Virus record (IMG/VR): IMGVR_UViG_3300028823_000027
Coordinates: 1 to 28,373 of that record
Source of the DNA: a virus
Direction: 5' to 3' (one strand)
Length of the DNA: 28,373 bases
Shown here: one piece after another, positions 11,655 to 22,000 of the stretch
Position numbering within the stretch: position 1 is the first letter of the stretch
Layout of the letters: every line of letters starts with the position of its first letter
Position numbers and translations under genes: made by a program
Notes under the pieces: model-generated
What the model saw: the letters and a program-made list of their open reading frames with translations, nothing else
Databases searched by the model: none
What the model was told of the DNA's origin: nothing

Positions 11655-14213
11655 ATGCCGAACTATTACGAAGATATCCCCTGGGAAGGTAATTGGGAGT
11701 CCTACGAGGAAGAGGAAGAAGAAGAGTTCTACCCTTCTGACGAAATTCCATGGGAAGGGCAATGGGAACCGACCGGTCCTATGCGGATTAGCGATATTCC
11801 GAAATCTATTGCTACAGGGGTAGGGACCGCGCTTAAAACCTTGCGCCCGATTATGGCCTTACAGGATATGCCTTATCTTGCCGGTAAAGGCCTGCAGGCA
11901 ATCGGGGCCATTACGGGCCGAGAGGAAGACCTCGGGGCGCTCGGGGAATTCCTTACTGAGGCATCCAGAACAGAACAAACCCGCAAGATAGCCGAGGAAA
12001 CCGAGAAATATTGGGAAGAATCCCTTTCTCCAAGAGCCAAGGAACTAAAGAAAAAACCGTTTCTCGGGCCTGAAGGCGTAACGGCAGCCGAAGCGGTACC
12101 CAAAATAGCCATGATGGCTGCCGAATCGATCCCCATGACATTTTTGGGCATGGGCGGCGGTATGGTTATTGCCCGTAGTTTGATTTCGGCCGGAATGAGC
12201 CCCGGAGTAGCCGGTATGATCGGCGGTGCAATCGGCGAAGGTGTCACGGCGGGAATTTCCAATGCGGACCAGATTTACGAAGACTTGATCGCCCGCAACC
12301 CGGAAGACCTGGCCGAAATGCCGATTTACCAGGAAATATACGATGCCTTGCCCGATAACCTCGATGAAGCTGGAAAGAAAAAGCTGGCCCGCAAAATCAT
12401 GGCATTGGCCGGTAGCGCCTTTGTCGGGCTCACCACGACCGTATCGACCGGAATATTGGGAGCACCGTCCGGATACGTCATGGGTAAAATCATTGGTGGC
12501 GAATCCAAGAATTTCCTGCGTAATATCATCCAGGAAGCCTTATCTGAAGGCCTGATCGAAGAGGCGCCCCAGAGCGCTGTCGAGACGATCATGAGTAACG
12601 TGGCCACAAAGTACCTGGCCGATCCGGAACAAGGCATTACTGAAGGGGCATTAGAGGCCGCTATTGGAGGTGGGTTTACCGGTGCCCTCATGGGTGGCGG
12701 CATGGCCATACCAGGCACTATTGCAGGTCGCGCCCCGGATCAGATTACCCGCCAGATCCTTGATGATTACCATGAAGGCAGGCTCACGTTTGGCGAGCTG
12801 AAAGAAATCCATGACGCCATCCCGCCGGATCATCCTACAGCCCTCGCAATCAATAAGATCATTACGGGATTAACCGCCAGTACGGAAACGCAGGATCTTT
12901 TGCCAGGCACGACCAAGGAAAGGCCTGAAGTCGATTTGGTGGATTTGACCGCCCTTGCCGAAGCGCCGCCTCCGGTTCCTGCAGCTCCGGAAGTTCCCGC
13001 GCCGCCCACATACCCCACGGGGTATCCATCCGTTCGAATAGGAGAAGAAGAGCCGCTCCTTGATATGTGGGAGCGTTTATCCGCGCAGCAGGCCGAAGCA
13101 CGTAGAGTGCCCACCCCGGCAGAAGAATCGGCCAGAGTATTCGAGCAATACTATGAAGGGGAAGACTTACTCGATACCTGGCAAAGGTTGTCCGAGCAAA
13201 CTGCGGCAGAACGGGCCGCAACGGAAGAAGAATTAGCCTACAGGGCCGCCGAAACACCGGCTGCCGCTGAAGGCCTAAGAGAACAATTAGCAGCAGAAGA
13301 AAGGGGGGAAGAATATGCCGGCAGGATACGAGAAGATGAGGGACAAATTCTTCCAGGAGAAGGTATCGGCTTGGGAGAAGCGGCACCCGAGGGACAATAT
13401 GTCGAAGAAGAAGAGGGCGGACTTGTACGACCGGGCGCAGGGGAAGGCCGCCCGGATTTGGAACTCGAAGAACCCGGGCAACCCGGTAGGCCGGGGGAGG
13501 CCATAACCATTGAAGACATCGAAGGCGCGGCCGAAGCGGGTCCGAGCGAAATCACTGCCGAACTGGAAGGCCAAGAGATTGAGACGGAGCCGACCGAGGC
13601 CCAGGCAGAAGCGGGGAATTACAAAAAAGGACACGTAACCTGGCAAGGCCTGGATATCACGATCGAGAACCCGAAAGGATCCACCAGGACAGGAAAAGAC
13701 GAAGACGGTAAGGCCTGGGATCGGGAACTCAAAAGCCATTATGGCTATATCCGGCGCACGGAAGCGAAAGACGGCGATCAGGTCGATGTATTCGTCGGGG
13801 AGCAAACGGATAGCGATAAAGTTTTCATTGTGAACCAGGCTAAAGCCGACGGCAGTTTCGATGAGCACAAAGTCATGGTCGGCTTCATGACCGAACCGAT
13901 GGCGCGGGCTGGCTATCTGGCCAATTATGAACCTGGGTGGGACCGGATTTTATCCATTCAGGAGATGACCATCGATCAGTTCAAAGGCTGGTTAGAGGCG
14001 GCTGATTTTACCAAGCCGGCCGGACCTCCAGCGGCAGTTGCGCCAAAAGCCGCGCCTACTCCGGAAGGCCTGGAAGGCGTTACCATAAGCAGGAAAATAA
14101 TGACCGATACGGGTGAGGAAATGACGGTAAAAATGGATGCAAAAGAGGCTTATGACGAAATTACCGCCGATATTGACAAATGGAATACTCTCTTAGAATG
14201 CCTGGGGATGTAG
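11655..14213 (+). CDS. polyvalent protein with glycine-rich hydrophobic segments and pyrophosphatase-like (InPase) domain
   Basis: An 852-residue multidomain protein. The N-terminus has two copies of an I-P-W-E-G-x-W-E motif (about residues 8-15 and 30-37) around an acidic run. Residues about 147-203, 247-282 and 326-363 are Gly/Ala-rich hydrophobic helices that could insert in a membrane. Residues about 430-650 are acidic/Pro/Gly-rich linker with a repeated LLDxWxRLS motif. Residues about 655-785 match the InPase domain described in phage polyvalent proteins: NYKKGHVTWQGLDITIENPK, HYGYI, then D706-G-D-Q-V-D-V, close to the soluble inorganic pyrophosphatase signature, and DEHKVMVGF. The domain may act on pyrophosphate or a related phosphoanhydride; activity is unproven. 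Translation starts shortly after the previous stop with a weak ribosome binding site. A second gene is nested in the linker at 13315-13506. Confidence 0.8.
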   Translation: MPNYYEDIPWEGNWESYEEEEEEEFYPSDEIPWEGQWEPTGPMRISDIPKSIATGVGTALKTLRPIMALQDMPYLAGKGLQAIGAITGREEDLGALGEFLTEASRTEQTRKIAEETEKYWEESLSPRAKELKKKPFLGPEGVTAAEAVPKIAMMAAESIPMTFLGMGGGMVIARSLISAGMSPGVAGMIGGAIGEGVTAGISNADQIYEDLIARNPEDLAEMPIYQEIYDALPDNLDEAGKKKLARKIMALAGSAFVGLTTTVSTGILGAPSGYVMGKIIGGESKNFLRNIIQEALSEGLIEEAPQSAVETIMSNVATKYLADPEQGITEGALEAAIGGGFTGALMGGGMAIPGTIAGRAPDQITRQILDDYHEGRLTFGELKEIHDAIPPDHPTALAINKIITGLTASTETQDLLPGTTKERPEVDLVDLTALAEAPPPVPAAPEVPAPPTYPTGYPSVRIGEEEPLLDMWERLSAQQAEARRVPTPAEESARVFEQYYEGEDLLDTWQRLSEQTAAERAATEEELAYRAAETPAAAEGLREQLAAEERGEEYAGRIREDEGQILPGEGIGLGEAAPEGQYVEEEEGGLVRPGAGEGRPDLELEEPGQPGRPGEAITIEDIEGAAEAGPSEITAELEGQEIETEPTEAQAEAGNYKKGHVTWQGLDITIENPKGSTRTGKDEDGKAWDRELKSHYGYIRRTEAKDGDQVDVFVGEQTDSDKVFIVNQAKADGSFDEHKVMVGFMTEPMARAGYLANYEPGWDRILSIQEMTIDQFKGWLEAADFTKPAGPPAAVAPKAAPTPEGLEGVTISRKIMTDTGEEMTVKMDAKEAYDEITADIDKWNTLLECLGM
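13315..13506 (+). CDS. nested small basic protein in the +1 frame of the InPase gene
   Basis: A 63-residue basic protein encoded entirely inside the larger gene, shifted by +1. AAGGGGG at 13301-13307 lies 7 bases before the ATG and differs from the ideal AAGGAGG by one G-U-tolerated base. The sequence opens with MPAGYEKMRDKFFQEKVSAW and closes with KAARIWNSKNPGNPVGRGRP. I recall a similar opening (Y-x-x-M-R-D) and closing (A-A-x-I-x-N-x-x-x-P-G-x-P-V-G-R) from free-standing small phage proteins, which a random shadow should not have. Codons end mostly in G or C. The host-gene frame here is a low-complexity Glu/Gly/Pro linker. Function unknown; the basic charge suggests binding to nucleic acid or an acidic partner. 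A chance shadow remains possible, because Glu-rich sequence shifted by one base tends to read Lys/Arg. Confidence 0.6.
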   Translation: MPAGYEKMRDKFFQEKVSAWEKRHPRDNMSKKKRADLYDRAQGKAARIWNSKNPGNPVGRGRP

Positions 14214-14613: not shown

Positions 14614-15816
14614 ATGTATAGGAACGTGGCAGGCCAGATAGTGGCTGTATATGCTTGGAATACAGCCGCCGGAGCACCTCAAACGGGAGATTCTGCCAAT
14701 ATCACTGCCCAGATTTCCTTGGACGCCGGTGCTTGCGCGGCCACCGCTGATACTAATCCATCGCAACTTGATGCCGTAGATGCTCCCGGAGTTTACCTGT
14801 TCGGCTTAAGCCAGGCAGAAACCGATGCCGCTTTTATCGTAATTCAGGCAGTCAGTTCAACGGCAAACGTCCATATTGATCCTTTGTTTATTTATACAGA
14901 TTTGGTAACGCCCGCCACACTTGCAACGCTCGCGGCATCGATCGTGAATGAATGGGAAACGCAGTCTCAGGCCGATCCGACCGGTTTTCATGTAAACGTC
15001 ATGGAGGTCAACGGAACGCCCCAGACGGCCAACGATAATGGCGCAGACATCAATGCGATCCTAACAGATACGAACGAATTGCAGACAGATTTGACGAATG
15101 GCGGGCGTCTCGATTTGCTGATTGACGATATTCTTGCTGACACGAATGAGCTGCAGGCAGACGATACTCCGGCCGCCCTGGCGGCTATCGATGGTAAAAT
15201 CGACACGATTGACGGAATTGTAGATACTATCTTGGTTGACACAAACGAACTTCAAACAGACGATATTCCTGGATCCCTGGCAACGATCGAAGGGAAAATC
15301 GATACGATAGACGGCATCGTTGACAATATTCTGGTGGACACGAATGAACTCCAAACGGACGATATTCCGGGATCATTAACGGCGATCGACGGAAAGATCG
15401 ATACGATTGATGGAATTGTAGATTCGATACTTGTGGATACGGACGAGTTACAGGCAGACGATATTCCAGGTTCCTTGGCAACCATAGAGGGAAAGATCGA
15501 TACGATTGACGGGATCGTTGACGATATCCTGCTTGATACGGATGAATTGCAAACGGACGATGTTCCTGGCCTAATCGCTGCACTGAACAACATATCCGTA
15601 TCAGACATAACCGGGGTGGAAGTTGACAATGACGGAACGGCAATTTCCCTTGCCGGGGCATTGAAGCTCTGCCTTTCTGTGCTTACGGGAAAATCATCAG
15701 GAGGTGGAACGGCCACGATTGTTTTCAGGGATATCGCAGATTCAAAAAACAGAATTTCAGCGACCGTCGATATCAATGGAAACAGAACCGCCATTGGTAC
15801 AAGAGACGCCAGCTAA
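14614..15816 (+). CDS. phage appendage/fibre protein with coiled-coil tandem repeats
   Basis: A 400-residue protein preceded by CAGGAGA. Residues 1-95 form a beta-sandwich head (VAGQIVAVYAWNTAAGAPQT, a G-D-S-A-N-I-T-A-Q-I-S strand, then APGVYLFGLSQAETDAAFIV), a fold often found at the base of phage fibres. Residues from about 149 to 320 carry four full 33-residue repeats and flanking partial ones, each of the form I-L-x-D-T-N/D-E-L-Q-x-D-D-x-P-x-x-L-x-x-I-x-G-K-I-D-T-I-D-G-I-V-D-x; the I-D-x-I-D-x-I-V-D spacing suggests a trimeric coiled coil interrupted by short Pro-Gly turns. The C-terminal 45 residues (IVFRDIADSKNRISATVDIN GNR, in part) are a common short cap of this protein type. Likely a stalk-forming tail appendage. 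Confidence 0.7.
   Translation: MYRNVAGQIVAVYAWNTAAGAPQTGDSANITAQISLDAGACAATADTNPSQLDAVDAPGVYLFGLSQAETDAAFIVIQAVSSTANVHIDPLFIYTDLVTPATLATLAASIVNEWETQSQADPTGFHVNVMEVNGTPQTANDNGADINAILTDTNELQTDLTNGGRLDLLIDDILADTNELQADDTPAALAAIDGKIDTIDGIVDTILVDTNELQTDDIPGSLATIEGKIDTIDGIVDNILVDTNELQTDDIPGSLTAIDGKIDTIDGIVDSILVDTDELQADDIPGSLATIEGKIDTIDGIVDDILLDTDELQTDDVPGLIAALNNISVSDITGVEVDNDGTAISLAGALKLCLSVLTGKSSGGGTATIVFRDIADSKNRISATVDINGNRTAIGTRDAS
15130..15579 (+). repeat. 99-bp tandem repeats in the appendage gene
   Basis: Units begin at 15130, 15229, 15328, 15427 and 15526, exactly 99 bases apart; the first four are complete and the fifth is partial. A degenerate unit precedes them at about 15058. The units differ by many third-base changes while the protein repeats stay nearly identical, so the array is old or under selection at protein level rather than a fresh slippage product. 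Confidence 0.85.
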
Positions 15817-16035: not shown

Positions 16036-19000
16036 GCAGCTTAAGTCATTGCCTGGAATTACATACGAACCTTTTTTCTGATGAAGAAAAGAATCAAGTC
16101 AGGAATGCCGCCGCCGAATATCGCAAGGAAGGATTTGACGCTCAGATTGCCAATGTGTCAGCCGTGGAAGACATTATCCGGGATCTCGAACAAGAACGAG
16201 CGGATATCGTAAAACAGGCAACCGGCAAAAAACCTCCCATAAAACCCGAAGTCCCGCCAAAGCCGGAAGTGTCCGCGATCGAAGCGGAAATCGCCGAGAC
16301 GCCTATCGAGGAAATTGAACGGATGATTGAGGAAGCCGCACCGGAAGAAATAGCTCCGGTTGAAGAGGCTGCGGCGCCGGCCGTTGCGGAAGAAGGGGCC
16401 GCACCGGTACCACCGACAGCGCCCAAGCCTCCGACAGAAAAACCCGCCGTGCCGAAAGCGTCCGATATTGCCAAGAAAGCTGCCAAGGCGGGCGTGCAAG
16501 GCGTCGATGAGGCCATTACGGGACTTTACGAACTCTTTGGAGGAAAAGGTGTTGTTCGGACGTTCCCTGGCGCCATAGACGAAAAAACCTACGCTGCGGC
16601 CAAGCCTCACTTTGAGGCGGCCCTGGCAAAGTGGAAAGAAGCCGGAAAGAACCTGAAAGACCTGGTTCAATTCCTGGTCAACAATTTCGGGAATGGCATC
16701 AAGCCTTATATCTCACGCTGGATGCGTGAATTGAAGGGCATAACGGAAATAGAAGAAGCCGAAGGAGCCAAGGCGCCCACACTCGAAGAAGCCGTCGGGG
16801 AAGAGGAAAAAGGCAAGAAAGAGAAAAAGAAAGTCAAGAAACTCAAAGATGTCGGGGAGCGCCGCTGGAAACGGGCGGGAATGTCTACCGAAGACAGGAT
16901 CGAAAAGATCACGCTCGAACTGGACAAGGAAATCACCGAAACAGATACCAAAAAAGTCCTGGCCGCCCTCCAACGCATGACGGTCAAGGCTACCCTGATC
17001 CCTACCAATGAATTATCCAAGGATGCTACACCTGGCCTGATCCGATGGTTTAACGCCATGCGCCGTGACATTGTCGGATTCACCGAGTGGGCCGGCAAGA
17101 AATTCGGGGGCCGAAAAGGGTGGGGAAAAAGCTACGAGGACGCCATCCAGGAAGCTCTCAGCGGCCCTACCGGAAAAGAAGAAGTCCGGAAGATGGCGGC
17201 GAAATACATTGCGACCCTGGAACAGCTCGCCGAAGCGATTACCAGCGGCACGACGATTTCTCAGGCGCGGGACGCTCTAATCAGGCTGATGGTTGACGAA
17301 TCGAATTACGAAATCCGCAAACTCGATAATATCGTCAACTTTTACGATCTGTCCAGCGGCACCTTGGATGGCATCCTTACCGAATGGGGTCAATCGTATA
17401 CAGATATTGTGAAATACAGCCTCTTCATCATGCAGAAAAATATCCTCACCAAGTGGACGGACAGGCTGATTGAGAAAGAAAACGATGAGGAAAAGAATCT
17501 CAAGATAGTCCGGGAACGACGAAAAATCTTCGATATCGAGACGGATGGTGCCGAGAGAAAAGGTAAAAACGTAACAGGACAAGACCTGATCGATACGTTC
17601 GGCCTTGGTACCGTGGCGTTCGGGAACTGGACGGAAGGCCCGCACAGACAGAAGAGCGTGAACCTTACGTTCGATTCGCTCTATGACCTGGTGAAAATCC
17701 TCGGCGCTCCTGCCAAGGCGGCATCGTACAACATGGAAAGGCGCCTCGGGATCATGTACGGTGCCCGAGGGCGCGGAGGGAGAGCGGCAGCGACTTTTCA
17801 TCCGGAAGACAACACGATCAATCTCACCAAGACACACGGGGATGGCAGCCTGGCCCATGAATGGGGTCACGGGTTTGATTTTTATTCTAAAGTCAGCATG
17901 AAGAACAACGAGAATGAGGAATACCGTTCTTACAACCCGTTCGACGACCTCAAGCACGCCTTTAAATTCAAGTACGACCTCAGCAGTATGATGCAGACCG
18001 TCGAAGACCTCTTGCGCGGTATTCATTATACCTCGAGGAAAGGTCGGAACCGGCTCAAGGAAGCCGAGAACTGGATCAAGGATAAATGGGAAAGCGAGTT
18101 CGTCTCGAAAACCCGGTTCTGGACGGACGCAATCGGCCTGGATGGCGGGAAACAAGGCAAATATTGGTCACAGCCGGTCGAGATGTTCGCCCGCGCTTTT
18201 GAGGCCTACGTTGCGGATAACCTGGAAAAGGAAAACTACTACCTGGTCGATCCGGCTTTTGTGGCATCCGGCGCAGTGGAAGAACTTTTCAGGCGGGAGC
18301 ACGGCGCCTACCCGACTGAAGAAGAACGGGACCGATTCAATGAGTTGTTCAAAGCCTTCTTCGACGGTATGACCTGGGACGAGAACGGCGTGCCGACCAT
18401 GAAACCGGATTATGTTCCGGTTACCTTGCAGGAATATCTCTCGGCGAAAGAGAATGTCCAAAAAGTCCTGGATACCCTGGAAGATATTTACAAGGCGCTC
18501 TATGCCGGAAAACAATCGGAAGACGGCCTTTACTGGTATGCCTATCGGGATACCACCCGGGCGCCAGAGATGCAGCCCCAGGGCGTCATGGCGTTCGATG
18601 ACGAATACAGACAGGAAGGCTTTACCGGCCAAGGCGCTATCGGATATGGAGAAAGCGTACACCCGGACGATGTGATCAAATACGGTCTGGAACCGATCGT
18701 TCATGAAAAGACCGATAAAACTCAGTATTTAGAGGTGGGGGAAGATGGAACAGTTATCAGCGATTGGACGACAGGCGGCGCGGCATTGGGAGAGTCATCG
18801 GCCCGAGATGGTGAAACATTTAAAGAAGGTGGGGGAGTATCGACTGGCACTGATCGAGGCGCAGGAGTCGGTGAGGAGGGGGCTGGCGGACCTGGTGTCG
18901 AGGAAGGGGGTGAACTTCCAGGCGGCGAAGGAGTTACTGATGACGGAGCGGATTTACCTACCACCGGAGACGGAACTGAAGATACTTCCGAAGTCTCAGA

Positions 19001-22000
19001 TGCCGTTCAGTCAGCCGGGCGAATCGACCACACCGTCCTCACAACCGACAACCTCGACCAACGCAGCATTGCCCAGCGATTTACCGATAACATAAGCGCC
19101 ATTCGGCTCCTTAAACGAATCGAGGAAGAAGACCGGCTCGCCACGCCCCAGGAACAAAAGGTGCTGGCCAAGTTTTCCGGTTGGGGGGCACTCAGCCCGG
19201 CCCTGGAACATTATCCGCCTGAGGCCTGGCAAAGCCGGGCAAACATGGTCGCGGAGGTCCTCACGAACGAAGAACTGGAAGCGGCACGGCGAAGTACCAT
19301 AGACGCCTACTATACGCCGGTCGCGGTCTATGACGCTATTTACCGGACCCTGGCCAAATTCGGCTTTACGCCTGGCAGAATCCTTTCTCCATCGGTAGGT
19401 ATCGGGTTGGAGTTCGGGACTATGCCGGATGAGCTCCGCAAGATTTCCAGTTTAACCGGAATCGAGATGGACAATATCAGTGCCCGGATTGCCAAGCAGC
19501 TTTACCAGAATCAGAGCATCATCAATGACCGGTTCGAGAATGTGTCCATGCCGGAAAACTTCTACGATCTGGTAATATCGAACGTGCCCTTCGGCGATTC
19601 GCAGCCGCACGACCGGACGCATAATCCGTTTCGGTTCAGGATTCACGATTACTTCATCAATAAATCCTTGAATCTTACCCGGCCCGGCGGCCTAATGGCG
19701 ATCATTACGTCCACCGGAACCATGGATAAGGCCAACGCGAAAGCTCGCCAAATTTTCTCCGAAGAGGCCGAGCTGGTCGGGGCCATCCGTCTCCCGAACG
19801 GTACCTTTGTCGGAGCCGAGGCGGCCTGCGACATCTGCTTTTTCAGAAAACGGGGCGACAATCTCACGCCCATACCGGACAATCCGTTCGTCGAGACAGT
19901 CCGCGAAAAGCTACCTTATCTCAATAAAGACGGCACAATACGGGAAACGACCTGGAAGGCAGAGAGGGATATCAACCAATACTTCAAGGATCATCCCGAA
20001 ATGGTTCTTGGCACTATGGGCGTTCAAATGGGTCGATACGGCGAGCAAGTCGTGACGATCGGTGACAACACGAATGTCGGGGAAAAGATCGATGAAGCGA
20101 CCAAGAAACTCCCGGACGGCGTTTACACGGAAATCCAGGTCAACCATGAACTGAACTTGCTCGAAAATATGCCGAAAGCTGGCGATATTAAGGACGGCGC
20201 CTATTATGTTGGCCAGGACGGAAAACTTTACATCAATGACGGCGGCACCCCGATCGAGTATGAGGAACGCACGCCGACACAGAAAGACCGGGCAAAGCGG
20301 ATCAGGGCTCTTATTCCGATTCGGGATACGATTCGAGAATTGCTAAGAGGACACATTGCCGAAGTATCCAAAGATGAACTCGAAAAATTCCGCAAAATCC
20401 TGAACACACAATACGATAATTTCGTCAAAAAATTCGGATGGATCAATTCGCGCAAGAACGTCATGGCGATCTTTGACGACCCGGACGCCGGTGTATTGCT
20501 CGCGCTTGAAAAATGGGATGAAATCGAAGAAACGAGCAAGGGCAAGGAAGCGATCTTCTCTGAAAACTATATCGCTAAAGTCAAGCCGCCAGAATCGGTC
20601 GAAGATATCACGGAAGCCCTGGTTTATTCGCTGAATTATAAAGGCCGCGTGGATCTCGGATTTATCAGCCAACTTACCGGGGCATCGAGAGACGACGTAG
20701 TTGCCAGGCTGAAAGGAAAAATCTACAACGATCCCGAGCGCGGTTATGTGACGGCCGATGAATATTTGAGCGGGAACGTCAAGCGAAAGCTGAAGACGGC
20801 TATTCAAGCCGCCCGGACGGACGAAAAATTCCAGGAAAATGTCGATGCCCTCCAAATGATTCAACCGGAAGATATTCCAATCCACGATATTAAAATCAGG
20901 ATAGGCGCGGCCTGGATGCCGATCAAGCATATCCGAAATTTCATGCTCGACATGATGGAAGGGACCGTTCGGAATTTCAAGATCGATCATGTCCCGGATA
21001 TCGGCAAATTCAATATTGTTTGGACCGGGCCTTCCAATGCGGCCGCGAACAGGAATCGACAGGCGGGGGAATCGTCCTATCATGCTACCGATACATGGGG
21101 CACCCGCGACGTAAATTTCTTCAAGCTCATGGATTATATCCTGAACGGCGGGTTTCCAAAAGTTTGGAGGCGGGACGCGTACGGAAATAAATGGTTCGAT
21201 CAGGCGGCGACTGATACGGCCATTTACAAAATGAGTCAAATCCATGATCGTTTTCAATCCTGGGTAGCCGAAACGGAAGGCGTTCAGGATGACATGAAAG
21301 AAATTTACAATGCCCGGTACAATGCACACGTTGATCGCGTCTTTGACGGTTCTCATTTGACTATGCCCGGCAAGGTTCCGGACGCGATCATTAAATTACG
21401 CCCTCACCAAAAGAATGCCATCTGGCGGTTTTTGCAGACAGGAGTTGCCTACTTCGGCCATGAAGTCGGTACGGGCAAGACTTTCACTTTACTCGGTTGC
21501 GCCATGGAAGCAAGACGGCTCGGCCTCGCAAAAAAGCCGGTTATTTCCATCAAGAAAGCTACCATCAACGATTTCAAAACGGCCTTTCAGCAACTTTATC
21601 CCGCCGCGAAAGTCCTATTCCTTCATGTGCCGGGCAATAAGGCGAAACGGATAAAGACGCTCTCGAAGATTGCGACGGGCGATTACGATGCTATTGTGGT
21701 CACTCACGAATCATTCGAGAAAATCCCGCTCAGTCCCGAGGGATACGCTCAGACAATCAGGGCCGATGTCCGCAAACTCGAGGCGGCCTTGCTCGAAGCG
21801 CAACGCCAGGGCGCCGGCCGAGTCACTATCCGGGATTTGGAAAATGCCAAGCAAAAATTGGAAGACCGGCTTAGTGAAATCCTAGAAAAAGAACGCGATA
21901 ATATTCCCACGTTCGAAGAACTCGGAATCGATTTGATCCTGATCGATGAAGCCCACGATTATAAGAACCTGTATTTCACTACGAATTACGAAAACGTAAA

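Follow-up and report, generated by a model that had tools for sequence, protein, structure and literature searches.

The window analysed here is a stretch of 28,373 nucleotides, positions 1 to 28,373 of the virus record IMGVR_UViG_3300028823_000027. Its InPase gene encloses a second, much smaller open reading frame. The features of the locus are as follows.

11655..14213, + strand: enclosing gene, encoding an 852-residue polyvalent-type protein with a C-terminal InPase domain
13301..13308, + strand: Shine-Dalgarno (SD) sequence AAGGGGGG of the nested gene, within the outer coding sequence (-11.2 kcal/mol; RNA predicted to be unstructured)
13314..13508, + strand: dual-coded stretch, read in the outer frame (residues 554-618) as an acidic Glu/Gly/Pro/Gln linker
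13315..13506, + strand: nested gene, encoding a 63-residue basic protein (ATG start, TAA stop; HMM E=9e-18; AlphaFold2 mean pLDDT 91)
13596..13997, + strand: InPase domain (PF18823, residues 648-781; E=2.8e-55), directly downstream of the nested gene

The outer protein matched PF18823 and the DarB-like PHROG (E=8.5e-62) and can be counted among the polyvalent proteins; a single catalytic domain was recognised in it, and the term multidomain rests on its relatives. The gene is placed after genes of internal virion proteins, in an order common to the phages of contigs L023 and L124. No Rfam element or tRNA accounting for the region was found. A sequence-only reading had described the larger frame at this place as a Glu/Gly/Pro linker, and the composition bears this out, since Glu, Gly, Pro and Gln make up 60% of the stretch versus 35% of the whole outer protein.

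Three further observations were made in or near the window. In the sequence itself, a 400-residue gene at 14614-15816 shows several degenerate repeats, each roughly 100-120 bp long, around 'gatacgattgacggaattgtagatactat'. In L003 (IMGVR_UViG_3300002052_000030), a near-identical contig, the ORFs downstream of the InPase gene are shortened (86 versus 130 residues and 334 versus 400 residues), which probably reflects indel errors or real frameshifts. Another nested ORF of 116 residues (MEQLSAIGRQAARHWESHRPEM...) lies at 18745-19095 (+) in the +1 frame of a 3909-residue gene; it has an SD of -8.1 kcal/mol and looks protein-like, and its relatives were found in two near-identical contigs only. It may be the first nested gene of the sequence-only reading.

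The ORF at 13315-13506 lies in the +1 frame relative to the ORF at 11655-14213. As the earlier reading had claimed, it is 63 residues long and is preceded by AAGGGGG (13301-13307), with 7 bases between the end of this motif and the ATG. The end of the protein had been read less exactly: AARIWNSKNPGNPVGR is present, but GRP comes after it before the stop, and the C-terminus is ...NPGNPVGRGRP. The deduced protein has a mass of 7.4 kDa and a pI of about 10.6, with 17 Lys/Arg and 7 Asp/Glu residues. Its SD is stronger than those of 99.5% of 998 out-of-frame internal ATGs, and the start region is unstructured by RNA prediction.

The simplest alternative is a chance ORF, that is, an out-of-frame stretch of GC-rich linker that is protein-like in appearance merely. 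The length of the ORF agrees with this, because 64% of codon-shuffled host genes contained an ATG-initiated nested ORF of 63 residues or more; length alone is therefore not significant. A nested ORF of this length with an SD as strong as that of the window, however, appeared in 1% of the shuffled genes, and the codon-position pattern described below is also contrary to a chance ORF. The decisive evidence came from homologues. When viral contigs were scanned with the 63-residue protein, relatives sharing 40-55% identity came up in 15 non-identical contigs, and profile scans extended these to about a hundred loci. Most of the loci encode stand-alone proteins of 43-66 residues with the pattern MPxGYEKMRDxFxxxGMSxKAAxxKAARIWNSKHxxxPVGRG. 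An HMM whose training set consisted of 56 distinct stand-alone proteins from other phage contigs, with no nested one among them, matched the window ORF with E=9e-18 (61.9 bits), whereas the best of 500 codon-shuffled host-gene controls scored 12.5 bits; the six further nested ORFs tested gave E values from 8e-11 to 3e-26. Since a profile built from stand-alone proteins alone gives this score, the doubt between a real gene and a chance ORF is removed, and the probability of the latter is practically nil.

By this stand-alone-only profile the window protein belongs to the family (MPxGYEKMRDxF...KAARIWNSKH, defined here), and it carries the residues M1, P2, Y5, A41, A45, A46 and N50, which are invariant in an alignment of 48 members. 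Its copy falls in a longer subfamily, in which an inserted segment is common to L023, L124, the divergent L156 and L186, and the stand-alone L249 and L250. The likeness to small stand-alone phage proteins, which had been put forward in the sequence-only reading, was thus borne out by 71 distinct stand-alone members and 11 further nested contigs; homologues were found where their absence had been named as the outcome that would count against the gene. The carriers are without exception contigs from metagenomes or MAGs, and a tblastn search of 50,697 annotated phages with five family queries gave no matching record. The window protein had no significant match in Pfam, PHROGs or NCBIfam, and searches of the PDB by sequence and by fold gave nothing meaningful. 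The proteins of DUF7218 (PF23855) are similarly small and have a KAARI.N-type motif; 23 of the 31 family members match this profile weakly (best E=8e-4), and the window protein gave no match to it up to E=10, the curated profile cut-off not being reached. In L073 (8001), a family member forms the N-terminal part of a 150-residue protein, i.e. it is also a fused domain. A possible divergent cousin (MPLEYKKERNHLAGKYRKEGLSRKAALKKAKKQAAINYWYRHHKPVNEAD; HMM E only 0.026, SD -11.7) lies at 7514-7663 of L284, nested in a 2323-residue gene in a relative frame identical to that of the family, and nesting may therefore extend to related small families.

The gene was found entirely within an ORF on the same strand, 1429 to over 3600 residues long, in 11 contigs besides the window, from about ten lineages (L023, L124, L156, L186, L030, L035, which is close to L030, L212, L062, L048, L024 and L214). 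The relative frame and strand are identical in 12 of the 12 nested copies, and no nested relative has lost the start, SD or stop, whose presence was to be checked, or the frame; the start of L186 is GTG. The mean SD of the nested starts was -9.6 kcal/mol versus -3.0 kcal/mol for 998 other out-of-frame ATGs of the same genes (p=5e-9).

The nested gene could be a domain of the big protein that is reached by programmed frameshifting, or an in-frame fusion broken by a sequencing frameshift. Polyvalent proteins are modular, and the fused protein of L073 is in keeping with such a domain. The outer frame is, however, unbroken in all 12 nested contigs, and the nested ORF is bounded by a start and a stop codon of its own and preceded by its own SD. 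We found no copy that shared the frame of an enclosing polyvalent gene, and the near-identical contig agrees base for base within the ORF. We therefore regard a frameshift or a broken fusion as exceedingly improbable.

The 12 nested copies contain no outer-frame stop, a count that is not fully independent, because nested cases were recognised partly via the open outer frame. The same frame is open in only 5 of the 71 distinct stand-alone genes, and in none of the 55 at a locus GC below 50%; in AT-rich phages the nested copies are locally enriched in GC (e.g. 54% versus 39% in L023). When the nested protein of the window was redrawn with synonymous codons, the outer frame stayed open in 0.25% of draws; for L023, L124 and L048 it did so in none of 4000 draws. 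Read in the outer frame, the overlap is acidic in the nested copies (net charge -0.10 per residue) and free of Cys and Trp, whereas the remaining shifted frame would be strongly basic (+0.29 per residue). This difference between the alternative readings may be the reason why a single frame is seen.

The codon-position test does not depend on the way in which nested cases were recognised. In three independent pairs, the differences within the overlap numbered 63, 42 and 26 at outer codon positions 1, 2 and 3, as against 127, 107 and 265 in the adjoining InPase-side coding flank (p=5e-11). The outer third positions are thus the least variable inside the overlap, and the usual substitution pattern is reversed. 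Each outer wobble base is at the same time the second base of a nested codon, and the reversal is thus expected under selection for the nested protein. It points to amino-acid selection in the nested frame; the outer frame persists as an acidic Glu/Gly/Pro/Gln linker. An open outer frame together with a nested frame under amino-acid selection is what is expected of an embedded gene.

These results also bear on the possibility that a captured small gene is kept as good linker DNA only, its translation having been lost. The need to keep the outer frame open would by itself conserve the DNA in part; the nested copies average 35% identity in the outer frame. The nested frame, however, averages 52% over all pairs (70% versus 34% between the window and L023), the least variation falls at the outer wobble positions, and the SDs are not only retained but stronger than those of stand-alone copies (mean -6.7 kcal/mol). 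A silent passenger is therefore highly improbable. Taken together, the sequence comparisons indicate with high confidence that 13315-13506 is a real, selected and independently started nested gene.

The position of the nested gene was compared among phages by means of Pfam. It lies immediately before InPase in the window, L023, L124, L212, L030 and L035, immediately after InPase in L156 and L186, immediately before ddrB-ParB in L062, and distant from any recognised domain in L024, L048 and L214. Each nested record has exactly one copy of the small gene. The stand-alone sister copy of L250 directly follows a portal gene, whose product is 47-48% identical to the portal encoded upstream of this window in a near-identical contig; the portal site of that contig's phage holds no copy, and its only copy is the nested one. 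An empty site was found in L282, where the host protein matches its L156 counterpart at 64% identity as far as the end of InPase and the nested gene is missing. Searches for empty sites with the N- and C-terminal host parts yielded only near-identical contigs for the window and this single case for the L156 family. As far as these sequences indicate, the single copy per nested record, the stand-alone sister by the portal gene and the empty site mean that the gene is optional.

Loss of the frame in relatives that keep the InPase gene had been named as a second outcome against the gene. The small gene is indeed missing from 49 of 50 other InPase phage records (the one weak match has a stop), and it was absent near InPase in seven annotated InPase phages, including Vibrio douglas 12A4 and Leptospira LE1. 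At the comparable site in L282, however, the whole cassette is missing and no decayed frame is seen. The absence from most InPase phages does not, for this reason, speak against the gene.

Stand-alone members of the family are widespread, and the nested gene is therefore very likely older than its arrangement within the large one. As to how nesting arose, we considered a fusion of two neighbouring genes via the small gene. This is disfavoured, as InPase is absent from all 40 stand-alone records and there is an empty site. For the same reasons insertion into the linker is favoured, though not proven.

A different history is an ancient nesting, in one or a few events, after which un-nesting and domain shuffling made the present scatter, with the frame inherited. 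The frame common to all copies is in line with it, as are the six copies directly before InPase and the phages of the window, L023 and L124, which are syntenic over about ten genes and nested at the same place. In the tree of the small protein, however, nested and stand-alone copies are interspersed, with 8-9 changes between the two states in bootstraps and at least 4 forced by well-supported branches; the tree rests on 49 columns and resolves poorly how often nesting took place. The varying positions, the N-terminal parts of the host proteins, mostly unrelated among the nested cases, and the empty site are also contrary to a single old nesting. We consider such a history rather unlikely, and repeated insertion into linkers, as judged from these comparisons, is favoured over it, though not proven. 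It is about an even chance that a small autonomous gene repeatedly enters polyvalent linkers as a cassette, always in the frame that gives an acidic flexible spacer, so that it would bring a gene and linker-coding DNA at once and have its expression and inheritance tied to the polyvalent protein.

The following mechanism can be proposed. A pre-existing small phage gene, whose family would have entered linkers several times as a cassette, now occupies an inter-domain linker in the InPase polyvalent gene. On the shared mRNA, ribosomes would initiate independently at the nested SD and ATG and translate the +1 frame into the 63-residue basic protein, while those making the big protein would read the identical bases as an acidic spacer free of Cys and Trp. 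AlphaFold2 predicted a confident helical hairpin for the small protein (helices 3-23 and 31-52), for which no fold match was found in the PDB and viral model libraries. A gene of a terminase-large cluster, annotated through cluster representatives, lies within five genes in 29 of 61 stand-alone loci. Because stand-alone copies are often near terminase or portal genes and the host gene of the window lies in a virion module, we tentatively suggest a candidate role as an accessory protein that binds nucleic acid in packaging or in the virion.

The arrangement resembles the embedded spanins Rz/Rz1, in which a small phage gene with its own start lies wholly within a larger one in another frame (PMC6139136). 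Spanin gene pairs occur embedded, overlapped or separated, and gene callers miss the embedded gene (PMC6139136). The present protein differs from Rz1 in that it has neither Cys nor a hydrophobic signal and, as a predicted helical hairpin, is no lipoprotein. Spanin partners act jointly in lysis, whereas the outer gene of the nested family varies between phages. In addition, the family has both stand-alone and nested members, whereas the spanin survey describes no family that combines the embedded with other arrangements (PMC6139136). Embedded phage genes are thus already known, and it is this mixing of states that sets the family apart. The enclosing genes are of the kind described as polyvalent phage proteins, with InPase, ddrB-ParB, ART-PolyVal and RadC domains (PMC5512222). 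A term search of that paper returned no genes nested in polyvalent linkers, and no account of them was found in the openly licensed literature.

The analysis adds a widespread, unnamed family of small phage proteins. Embedded genes are mostly attributed to the birth of a new frame within an older gene, or else have an origin that is untraceable. In this family, related phages offer the stand-alone, nested and empty-site states for comparison, which makes the route to nesting directly testable. The linkers of polyvalent proteins, moreover, can conceal complete genes that gene callers skip.
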